Shown in pieces: positions 46,906 to 49,718 of a stretch of DNA of 64,000 nt (positions are counted from its first letter, which is position 1; every line of letters starts with the position of its first letter). This DNA is from an uncultured Algimonas sp. (lineage in GTDB: Bacteria; Pseudomonadota; Alphaproteobacteria; Caulobacterales; Maricaulaceae). The stretch is taken from contig NZ_CANMJB010000001.1 of NCBI RefSeq assembly GCF_947498175.1, positions 186,001-250,000 of the forward strand. Direction: 5' to 3'. Made by a program: the position numbers and the translations under genes. The notes beneath the pieces are model-generated. The model saw nothing but the letters and a program-made list of their open reading frames with translations. It was not told where the DNA came from and searched no databases.

Positions 46906-47524
46906 CCTCGACCTGGCGTCCCGGCATCCGCTGTTCTGGGTGCCGAATGCGCTGACCATCGCCCGCATCCTGCTGATCCCCGTCTTCATCATCGGCATCC
47001 TGTCGCTGGAATTCGGCTGGGGCAGCCCGCTGGGGCAGCTGGTCGTTCTGGGCCCGCTTTTCGCGCTCGCCGCCTTCACCGACTGGCTCGACGGCTATCT
47101 GGCGCGCCGCTGGTCCGTCGTGACCGGCTTCGGGCGGATGATCGATCCGATCGCCGACAAGCTGCTGGTGGCCGGATGCCTGATCGCTTTCATGATCGCC
47201 GCCAGAGGCGATTGGCTGTTCCTCGTGCCCGGCCTCGTCATCATCTTCCGCGACATCCTCGTCTCGGGCGCGCGCGAACACGCGGCGCTCACGGGCCGCG
47301 TCATGAGCCCGACCCAGCTGGCCAAGTGGAAGACGGCGTTCGAACTGCTGGGCATCGCCGTCCTGATCGTCTGGGCGTTGTCGCGGGCCTATCTGCCGAT
47401 CGATTCGGTGATCCCGGACATCGCCGACGCGTCCTACGCACTCGGCCTCGGCCTCATCTGGCTCGCCGCGCTCCTGTCCGCCTATACCGGGTCGCTCTAT
47501 CTGCGGGACGCGATCCGCGATTAG
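46898..47524 (+). CDS. pgsA: CDP-diacylglycerol-glycerol-3-phosphate 3-phosphatidyltransferase
   Basis: PgsA (208 residues) makes phosphatidylglycerophosphate, the first step to phosphatidylglycerol and cardiolipin. The full motif D-WL-DG-YL-AR...G-RMI-D-PIA-D is present (TDWLDGYLARRW and GRMIDPIADKLL). It has about six membrane helices and WVPNALTIARILLIP at the N-terminus. ATG 46898 overlaps the upstream stop. It is the last gene before the 1.3-kb non-coding region. Confidence 0.95.
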   Translation: MSDLDLASRHPLFWVPNALTIARILLIPVFIIGILSLEFGWGSPLGQLVVLGPLFALAAFTDWLDGYLARRWSVVTGFGRMIDPIADKLLVAGCLIAFMIAARGDWLFLVPGLVIIFRDILVSGAREHAALTGRVMSPTQLAKWKTAFELLGIAVLIVWALSRAYLPIDSVIPDIADASYALGLGLIWLAALLSAYTGSLYLRDAIRD

Positions 47525-47573
47525 GGCAGGGACGCCACAGTGCAAGGCCGACCGACGGCTGCTTGCCTGTCCT

Positions 47574-47679
47574 GATCCCCATTCCGCTCATACCAGGCAT
47601 GTCGGCGCCGAGGTCGAAGCCGCACAGCCCCGGAGAGGCCGAACCCTGGTTCACGATATCCGTTGGGATAATGGGGATC
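47574..47679 (+). ncRNA. Rod-like structured RNA candidate downstream of pgsA
   Basis: Three nested helices in register: GATCCCCATT (47574-47583) with AATGGGGATC (47670-47679), ACCAGG (47592-47597) with CCTGGT (47645-47650), and TCGGC (47602-47606) with GCCGA (47638-47642). A small hairpin (TATCC/GGATA, 47657-47670) lies in the 3' side of the large bulge. Such a rod with an asymmetric bubble recalls 6S-like RNAs, but no sequence match is claimed, and it may instead be the 3' end of the pgsA transcript. Strand is not certain. Confidence 0.35.
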
Positions 47680-47738
47680 GAGGAGTGTCGCGCGCCTGCT
47701 TACGACATCCGGTCACGCCATGGCTCTCCCCACCCCTC

Positions 47739-47759
47739 ATCCCGGGCTCGACCCGGGAT
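47739..47759. repeat. REP-like hairpin, family B, copy 1
   Basis: ATCCCGGG and CCCGGGAT pair perfectly around CTCGA. It belongs to the alphaproteobacterial GGATCCCGGGTCGAGCC type of intergenic repeat, seen again in opposite orientation at 48668-48688. Confidence 0.85.
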
Positions 47760-47802
47760 CCATCTCCCAACGGTTCCAGCTGGCCCAGCCGTCCCGTGAT
47801 GG

Positions 47803-47823
47803 ACCCCGGATCAAGTCCGGGGT
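47803..47823. repeat. REP-like hairpin, family B variant
   Basis: ACCCCGGA and TCCGGGGT pair perfectly around TCAAG. It is the common alphaproteobacterial TGGACCCCGGATCAAGTC repeat and lies 44 nt from copy 1, so the two form a paired (BIME-like) unit. Confidence 0.88.
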
Positions 47824-47841
47824 GAGGTGTATGGGAGACGC

Positions 47842-47867
47842 CGTCCCCGACATTCGTGGCCGGGGAC
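47842..47867. repeat. REP-like hairpin, family A, copy 3 (inverted)
   Basis: GTCCCC (47843-47848) and GGGGAC (47862-47867) close a stem whose centre (gacattcgtggcc) is the reverse complement of the family A centre (GGCCATGAATGCC) with two changes. It is in opposite orientation to the copies at 14833 and 48752. Confidence 0.75.
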
Positions 47868-48005
47868 AGACGGGGGAAGACCGCACAGGCCGCCCTTTCC
47901 CGACGCCCATCCTCGTTTATCGCACAAACCTTCCGCGTCTTCGCCCGCGCCAACCCCTTGTCCCCCCACGCTTTCCCTCCCGCCCATCCGAAAGAATCGA
48001 CAATT

Positions 48006-48343
48006 AGATCCCCACTCTGCGAACCTGTGCTATCTTCCGCCCCGTTCGCTGCAAGACACGAGGAGGGGCGTAACCCTCGGTGCAGCGGGCAGGAGCGAGG
48101 GCTCGGTAGTGTGAGCGGGGATCCTTCCGCCGCATGAGGACTGTGAAGAGCAGTCCGCGGGTCGTCTCCGGGAGAGCCGACGCCGGGGTCTGACAAACCC
48201 CGGTGCAATCGTAGCCCCGGAGAGGACCGCGCACCGCCGGGTGGAGAGGTCGGCCGACCTACGCAGCGGCCGATCGCCTCCGACGTAACGCTCCGACGTG
48301 TGGCTGGTCCCTGCGATCCGCGCGCGCTTAAGATCCCCGCTCT
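48006..48343. repeat. Near-identical 13-nt direct repeats flanking the RNA candidate
   Basis: agatccccactct (48006-48018) and agatccccgctct (48331-48343) differ at one base and bracket 312 bp containing the structured RNA candidate. Inside, GAGCGGGGATC (48113-48123) is a perfect 11-nt complement to the right copy and complements seven bases in a row of the left copy. The repeats could be element ends, a target duplication or alternate pairing partners. Confidence 0.6.
48041..48342 (+). ncRNA. Candidate structured non-coding RNA
   Basis: Many helices can be drawn: CGCTGCA/TGCAGCG (48047-48053/48081-48087) enclosing CGAGG/CCTCG; GGACTG/CAGTCC (48138-48143/48151-48156) extended by CCGC/GCGG; GTCG-TCTC/GAGA-CGAC (48161-48168/48172-48181); CCGGGGT/ACCCCGG (48183-48189/48197-48203); CGGGG/CCCCG (48116-48120/48215-48219); and long-range GCAGG/CCTGC (48089-48093/48310-48314). 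A 14-nt palindrome lies at 48247-48260. An 11-bp alternative helix joins 48113-48123 to 48332-48342. Signature motifs of RNase P RNA, tmRNA and SRP RNA are absent. The class is unknown; a HEARO/omegaRNA-like stand-alone RNA is one idea. Strand by best guess. Confidence 0.5.
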
Positions 48344-48667
48344 CGCCAGGGTCGGCGGTCGGGGGGAGGCCGTGGAGCGCAGAGGGTGGGCCGCACGCCG
48401 GGCGGCGATGTCGGGCCGGACTCCTCGCGCGGGCCTTGCCTTCGTGAAAATGGTTCTTGTTTCCCCTTCCCCGTCACGGGGCAGGGCCCGCGCCTCGTGT
48501 CGCCTTCGCGGCACAAACGCAACCCCGCCGTGGCCCCGATGCCCGGTCGCACGATGACACTCGCCCGATGATCAATCAGCCCTCGCCCCCGGACAGGGAC
48601 GCCCTCGCGCGGTTGCGTGCGGTCCATCGCCCGACCCTTTGCAGCCAGACGAAACGGCCGGAGACGG

Positions 48668-48688
48668 ATCCCGGATCGAGCCCGGGAT
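48668..48688. repeat. REP-like hairpin, family B, copy 2 (inverted)
   Basis: ATCCCGGATCGAGCCCGGGAT equivalents: ATCCCGG (48668-48674) pairs with CCGGGAT (48682-48688). This is the reverse complement of the copy at 47739 with one change, so the two family B hairpins face each other across the RNA candidate. Confidence 0.82.
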
Positions 48689-48751
48689 GAGGGAGAGGAG
48701 AAAGGGTGCCGGGAGCGAATGTGACAGCACGACCGGAAAAGACCAAACCGT

Positions 48752-48778
48752 CGTCCCCGGCCATGAATGCCGAGGACG
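48752..48778. repeat. REP-like hairpin, family A, copy 4
   Basis: CGTCCCCGGC (48752-48761) and GCCGAGGACG (48769-48778) with loop CATGAAT and one C-A mismatch; same orientation as the copies at 14833 and 39261. It lies 62 nt from the ilvE stop and may help end ilvE transcription. Confidence 0.78.
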
Positions 48779-48839
48779 GAAAGGAGAGGCCGGAGAGAAG
48801 GGGTGCTTCGCGATGAGCAGACGGAGCCGCCGCCTGGGG

Positions 48840-49718
48840 CTAGAGGCTGATCTTCCCCCGCACCAGCGCGTCATAGTCGGCCGCCAGTTCCTTGATCGTG
48901 TCGCCCACGCGATAGTGAATGCCCTGGATTTCGCGAACCGGCGTGACCTCGGCGGCCGTGCCGACCACGAAGGCGCCTTCGAAATGCGGCATTTCGCTGG
49001 GGTAGATGTCGCGGCGGTGGACGGTGATGCCGCGCTTTTCCGCCAACTGGATGACCGTATCGTAGGTGATCCCTTCCAGCAATATGTCGTTGGTCGGCGT
49101 GTGCAGCTCGCCGTCGCGCACGAAGAAGATATGCGCGCCGGTGCATTCGGCGACGCGGCCGCGATAGTCGTACATCAGCGCGTCGTCCCAGCCTCCGGCG
49201 GCTGCCTTGTCCTTGGACAAGGTGCAGATCATGTAGAGCCCGGCCGCCTTCGCCTTGCACGGAATGGTGTCGGGCGCGGGGCGTTTCCAGTCGGAGATCA
49301 TCAGGCGGATGCCGGCCATCTTGTCCGGGAAGTAGTTGCCCCAGTGCCAGCAGGCGACGGCCAGATGGATGACGTTGTTCTTCGACGCCACGCCCATCAT
49401 CTCAGATCCGCGCCAGGCGACGGGGCGGACATAGGCGTCGCCCAGGCCCGATCTGGCGAGCGCGTCCACGCAGGCCTGGTCGATCTGTTCGGTCGTGTAC
49501 GGAATCTCGTAACCCAGCAGATCGGCCGAATTTCGCAACCGCGCGCTGTGATCCGTCAGGCGGAAGATCTCGCCCTCATAGGCGCGGTCGCCTTCGAACA
49601 CGGCGGAGCCGTAATGGAGCGAATGGGTCAGCACATGCACTTTCGCGTCGCGCCAATCGATGAATTCGCCATCGACCCAGATATGGCCGTCGCGGTCGTG
49701 ATAGGGTTTTTCGAGCAT
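48840..49718 (-). CDS. ilvE: Branched-chain amino acid aminotransferase
   Basis: A 292-residue class IV PLP aminotransferase catalysing the last step of Leu/Ile/Val synthesis. It has HYGSAVFEGDRAYEGEIF, RPVAWRGSEMMGV, CKAKAAGLYMICTLSKDKA with the probable PLP lysine, DALMYDYRGRVAECTGAHIFFV, GITYDTVIQLAE and GTAAEVTPVREI. ATG 49718 fits the family start (MLEKPYHDRDGHIWVDGEF-like opening). It is divergent from the two-component genes by about 135 bp. Confidence 0.95.
   Translation of the reverse strand: MLEKPYHDRDGHIWVDGEFIDWRDAKVHVLTHSLHYGSAVFEGDRAYEGEIFRLTDHSARLRNSADLLGYEIPYTTEQIDQACVDALARSGLGDAYVRPVAWRGSEMMGVASKNNVIHLAVACWHWGNYFPDKMAGIRLMISDWKRPAPDTIPCKAKAAGLYMICTLSKDKAAAGGWDDALMYDYRGRVAECTGAHIFFVRDGELHTPTNDILLEGITYDTVIQLAEKRGITVHRRDIYPSEMPHFEGAFVVGTAAEVTPVREIQGIHYRVGDTIKELAADYDALVRGKISL

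Follow-up and report, generated by a model that had tools for sequence, protein, structure and literature searches.

The window analysed here is a 64,000-nt stretch of a 2.85-Mb genome (G000) of the genus Algimonas (Robiginitomaculaceae). Between pgsA (stop at 47524) and ilvE, which lies on the minus strand and ends at 48840, the window contains an intergenic gap of 1.3 kb, as an earlier note on this DNA had stated and the ORF coordinates bear out. The paired REP hairpins that were noticed at the same time are also present, as inverted REP-like arms at 47734-47776 and 48651-48693 (86% over 43 nt). The stretch 48006-48343, which had been proposed as a structured RNA candidate, is predicted to fold stably (MFE -171.2; z -3.69 on the plus strand and -2.74 on the minus strand versus shuffles).

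More decisive than the fold z-score alone is the fact that the element is a repeat in its own genome. A BLASTN search with a 421-base query yielded nine matches at E <= 1e-36 in G000, the window's own among them, and several contigs end within the repeat. One further copy (C4:82067-83033) repeats an entire REP-bounded composite (47735-48696, plus strand; 88% over this range). Some copies are common to the window only over approximately 48041-48552 and do not carry the arms, which indicates that the RNA unit is separate from the REP arms; the BLAST edges of the shared unit are 48041 and 48552/48553. The flanking arms, as short palindromes repeated in intergenic DNA, resemble REP/REPIN elements, but the RNA is a separate 340-495-nt unit. 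Because the RNA can travel with the REP arms in G000, some of the copies could have multiplied passively. REP-like palindromes at 47725-47830 and 48581-48706 have many further matches in the genome, and the whole gap has 94, RNA copies included.

The ends of the RNA were inferred from the block that several pairs of G000 paralogues have in common (roughly -385 to +128, counted from 48427; the shared block is longer in other pairs), giving a predicted plus-strand RNA of ~514 nt at 48042-48555. The candidate proposed earlier is part of a real structured RNA, but the edges assigned to it (48006 and 48343) were wrong, and the predicted RNA runs ~160-210 nt beyond the right one. The 13-nt direct repeats that were thought to bound it, AGATCCCCACTCT (48006-48018) and AGATCCCCGCTCT (48331-48343), do exist and differ by a single mismatch, but the left one is unconserved as a 13-mer and contains an ATCC box that precedes many copies (see below), and the right one sits within the RNA core.

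The RNA is closed by an 8-bp long-range helix, P1, in which 48055-48062 pairs with 48494-48501. All eight pairs are kept in 15 of 15 aligned copies, and three of them show changes on both sides. P1 reads GACACGAG/CTCGTGTC in the window, GGCACGGG/CCCGTGCC in G000_L149, G000_L152 and G012_L166, and GACATAGG/CCTATGTT in G006_L056. A best-partner search, which is biased towards pairing, gave a score of at least 8 out of 11 in 51 of 64 copies (in one, L096, at a spurious place; three copies lie at contig ends). Among the copies, P1 spans ~340-495 nt. Alignment of the window copy with the Algimonas porphyrae copies revealed constant ends and a variable centre. In the RNAalifold consensus of 15 copies, the centre is a multi-branched domain (48091-48425) that comprises a base helix (48091-48100/48416-48425), two arms (48101-48113/48230-48242 and 48243-48256/48267-48278) and a long arm (48279-48325/48369-48415) with an apical hairpin (48335-48347/48354-48365). 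An inserted palindromic sequence around GTGCATTTT was observed in the variable arms of L238, L260 and L272. Six mechanical ORFs overlap the element, and none has a Pfam match at E <= 0.01.

The constant 3' part begins with a hairpin (48427-48493) that carries a conserved GURAAA..GG..CC motif and is the basis of our search models R1-R3. The upper 3' strand of this hairpin has two possible partners (A4 columns 12-16, 47-52 and 59-64). The nested apical helix, which pairs in 86.6% of cells, is better supported than the alternative using the same 3' columns (73.1%), and the hairpin may switch between the two pairings. A terminal bulged hairpin, GCCG-T-GGC-[CCCGAT]-GCC-CGGT (48527-48547), follows 25 nt after P1. 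In its strict form (4 bp, one bulge, 3 bp and a loop ending in GAT), it was found in 49 of 105 copies; control windows had it in 10 of 2372 cases and shuffles in 7 of 2100. In 47 of these 49 copies it lies 19-33 nt downstream of P1. The strict form is missing from the other 56 copies, some of which contain variants by a looser search and others nothing alike.

Promoter-like boxes precede P1. In the window, these are a -35-like ATCCCC (48008-48013) and, after a 17-nt spacer, a -10-like TATCTT (48031-48036), both on the plus strand, and they predict a start at ~48042-48044. Of 58 copies, 46 have ATCC at ~37-52 nt upstream of P1 and 12 do not, compared with a frequency of 4.4% in 1663 same-locus control windows; the corresponding values are 33 of 58 versus 8.2% for a -10-like match and 26 of 58 versus 0.2% for both boxes. 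The homology among several G000 copies starts ~13 nt before P1, near the predicted start.

Two further structural proposals of the earlier note fared less well against the 15-copy alignment. An 11-mer, GAGCGGGGATC (48113-48123), is the perfect complement of 48332-48342, as had been pointed out, and this pairing forms when the truncated stretch 48006-48343 is folded as a single sequence. The proposed switch between two competing folds was rejected, because the pairing is broken at several positions in 8-9 rows and the local helix 48335-48338/48362-48365 is kept in 80-93%. The long-range GCAGG/CCTGC closing pair (48089-48093/48310-48314) is absent from the consensus, in which both strands are paired elsewhere.

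Covariation in the predicted structure well exceeds that in shuffled controls. In 54 distinct copies of the 3' hairpin, 14 of 22 pairs show both-side changes, and 182 compensated cells were counted versus 66.7 in shuffled alignments and at most 61 in slid versions, although the A4 structure is favoured in the slid-column control, having been drawn by hand after viewing the alignment. For the whole RNA, RNAalifold identified 67 pairs with both-side changes in 15 copies versus 30.4 +- 4.7 in 40 column-shuffled alignments. Of the 58 full copies, 48 entered the subfamily alignments (A 15, BC 11, D 19 and E 3); eight similar copies and the short L151 and G007_L170 were excluded. In the three subfamilies folded whole with shuffled controls (A, BC and D), 67, 51 and 72 pairs changed on both sides versus shuffled means of 30.4, 23.6 and 22.7, and none of the 40 column shuffles per subfamily reached the observed count.

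The pairing also identifies the RNA strand. Most pairs in the conserved helices are Watson-Crick; the G-U/A-C counts are 100/34, 54/19 and 102/25 in the sense orientation but 22/85, 29/39 and 27/99 in antisense folds, with the weakest contrast in subfamily BC. G-U is thus tolerated on the plus strand and not on the other, which argues that the plus strand is the RNA. The raw G-U excess in RNAalifold structures was discarded as evidence because column shuffles show the same excess.

No Rfam family accounts for the element. Searches with Rfam release 15 (4227 families) detected no gathering-score match in the window, and in 47500-48900 only six sub-threshold matches up to E 10 (three miRNAs, one snoRNA, one lncRNA and the Pseudomonas sRNA P10). 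Searches of 11 loci of other copies up to E 1 gave one tRNA and a CRISPR repeat below threshold. RNase P, tmRNA and SRP RNA, already thought to be absent, gave no Rfam or ARAGORN match. Our literature search revealed no description of a multi-copy Algimonas RNA family among the matches listed, and a term search of PMC8632094 for five related genera gave no matches. With homologues, covariation and no Rfam match, it is nearly certain that the flagged locus belongs to a real new class of structured RNA, one of the possibilities raised in the earlier note.

The class, which occurs in marine bacteria, appears to be narrowly distributed, partly as an artefact of the reach of models R1 and R2 and of strict filters; all three models were trained on sequences from genomes that were later counted. 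R1 matched 5 of 137 family genomes and, among 385 class genomes, only the window's own. At the order level, R2 matched 4 genomes out of 398, each of them from Algimonas. Among 18 Algimonas genomes, R2 was strong in five (G015 29 matches, G000 26, G006 13, G012 11 and G007 6), the 26 in G000 representing 24 loci since two of them read the same hairpins on the opposite strand. Weak R2 matches in four more (G004, G010, G014 and G017) turned out, when inspected, to be distant members that share the layout. R3, which was built after the distant members were known and applied to 18 + 40 genomes, reached wider and matched 16 of the 18 Algimonas genomes at E <= 0.01 (all except G001 and G003); the members of 11 of these genomes (G000, G006, G007, G012, G015, G004, G008, G010, G014, G016 and G017) were inspected, and G002, G005, G009, G011 and G013 are counted by their R3 matches. 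Beyond the genus, R3 matched 4 of 40 further genomes, all Robiginitomaculaceae; of their six loci, four (L252, L253, L254 and L256) show the layout, and L255 and L257 of G118 are matches alone. A pattern search of genome contigs gave 49 stretches, of which R1 matched four at E <= 1e-5, all four from Algimonas, and that of viral contigs gave one stretch. Searches of 72,556 plasmid and 50,697 phage records found no match to the window's RNA.

Many copies occupy sites shared across species. Collinear neighbours were found for 10 of 17 copies in G000, 8 of 11 in G006, 12 of 27 in G015, 5 of 15 in G008, 3 of 11 in G014, 2 of 7 in G010, 1 of 4 in G007 and 0 of 15 over G012, G004, G016 and G017; these counts are upper bounds, as a seven-member group depends partly on a repeated gene family and some groups were merged by single links. 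By our own estimate, the chance level is a few percent. At five sites, the resident copies of different species are not all of one subfamily: G000_L079 (A) and G006_L160 (D); G000_L058 (A) and G006_L096 (D); G006_L161 (D) and G015_L085 (BC); G000_L002 (A), G006_L158 (D) and G015_L084 (BC); and G000_L151 (BC), G006_L157 (D) and G015_L140 (BC). We infer that RNA copies may overwrite one another at their sites.

Within the fetched flanks (~1.5 kb), a copy occupies the ilvE site in G000 and G015, two of the 18 genomes. In G004, G001, G007 and G012, the alignments of pgsA and ilvE stop 3, 29, 103 and 259 bp short of each other and the RNA was not found; in the other twelve genomes, pgsA lies outside the fetched flank. 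The site is thus filled in G000 and G015 and empty in some relatives, suggesting gain or loss over time. Just after ilvE in G006, L294 is possibly a decayed remnant of the 3' tail of the RNA.

The genes adjoining the copies that we read are diverse, and the orientation of neighbours, based on crude ORF calls, is mixed (23/14/10/4 of 51 copies). The downstream genes read, presumably ettA, lon, typA, mdh, serC and a degP-like gene, are unrelated. In three species (L143, L155 and L159), the RNA is followed at a short distance by the start of a similar small protein, whose C-P/T-x-CGG motif looks zinc-binding. Another repeated small gene, which we take to be GIY-YIG-like, lies near G000_L149, G000_L155, G006_L159, G008_L265 and G015_L137.

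The explanation that we favour, with moderate confidence, is a new class of RNA genes that are autonomous, present in many copies and trans-acting, with constant ends that probably dock a protein and central arms that change fast. Each copy would be transcribed from its own sigma70-type promoter, starting ~13 nt before P1, and the transcript would close through P1. The constant ends (the GURAAA 3' hairpin and the terminal bulged hairpin with its ..GAU loop) would serve to dock a shared partner, most probably a protein, and the central arms, which differ by subfamily, would set activity or specificity. Since the neighbouring genes vary, the RNA probably acts in trans, a reading that we consider somewhat better than even. 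The copies would have arisen by old dispersal, with paralogues overwriting each other at fixed sites through cassette replacement or gene conversion.

The most serious rival, though an unlikely one, is that the RNA belongs to a non-autonomous mobile element, a REP-bounded cassette or other transposon that is kept mainly by spreading and that the RNA serves. The many copies, the near-identical paralogues, the duplication of the REP-bounded composite as a unit and the closely spaced, RNA-free pgsA and ilvE in four relatives would fit such an element, whereas the strong structural constraint, the many shared sites, the Pfam-negative overlapping ORFs and the lack of matches in plasmid or phage records argue against it. 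Reverse transcriptase (PF00078) is also absent from G000, G006, G012 (70% complete) and G015, which led us to reject a retron, DRT or group II intron RNA as well; the domain occurs in six of the 18 genomes (G007, a strong carrier, and G001, G008, G010, G016 and G017). The earlier suggestion of a formerly mobile RNA is supported in part, by the dispersal of the RNA and by the empty pgsA-ilvE site in relatives. A cis-acting leader or attenuator on neighbouring genes is improbable. The downstream gene is co-directional in 33 of 51 copies, so cis action is possible at some loci, and the small protein gene following copies in three species would suit it, but in 18 of 51 the downstream gene is opposing, as ilvE is here, and the downstream genes read are unrelated. 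Least probable is a DNA-level repeat (a REP/BIME-like cruciform) that makes no RNA: it would be consistent with the REP nest and the palindromic stems, but not with strand-asymmetric G-U tolerance, the long reach of P1 or the promoter-like boxes. Nor is there a strand bias by eye around the G015 chromosome, a single 3,169,281-bp contig with 13 plus and 16 minus matches (6/8 and 7/8 by halves set without a located origin).

Among known systems, REP/REPIN elements are found on both sides of the RNA here and are scattered through intergenic DNA, but the RNA is separate from them, some copies being without arms. The REP-derived naRNA4 of Escherichia coli is a short non-coding RNA from a REP-rich repeat; the Algimonas RNA is longer and has a conserved multi-domain fold. 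HEARO, the IsrB omegaRNA (presumably RF02033), had been one idea for this locus and resembles the RNA in being structured, of similar length and of mobile-element flavour. As far as tested, it was rejected: no HEARO match was detected even at E <= 10, no Pfam family in the six overlapping ORFs, and the central arms are variable. By eye, we saw no IscB-, IsrB- or TnpB-type ORF among the neighbours read, nor by Pfam in those six ORFs. According to PMC12286853, a 343-nt HEARO functions with IsrB, phages and prophages encode GOLLD and ROOL, and GOLLD, ROOL and OLE, like the Algimonas RNA, are hundreds of nucleotides long, with a multi-branched fold and a poorly understood function. Unlike GOLLD and ROOL, the Algimonas RNA lies among housekeeping genes, in up to ~29 copies, and the window copy has no phage-record match; neither these two nor OLE matched it in Rfam.

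A chromosome would then carry ~10-29 RNA paralogues, many at conserved sites, with protein-docking ends, diversifying centres and whole domains swapped as cassettes; that this amounts to an RNA multigene family with variable specificity modules is a possibility that we advance tentatively. We know of no bacterial RNA system like such a cassette-swapping family. Bacteria have few classes of large structured RNA, and among those that are understood several are ribozymes, riboswitches or RNP cores. A class that combines up to ~29 paralogues per genome with strong structural constraint and rapid turnover is unusual, and it can be tested in Algimonas porphyrae LMG 26424, a type strain that is in culture, has a complete genome sequence and gives 29 R2 matches.
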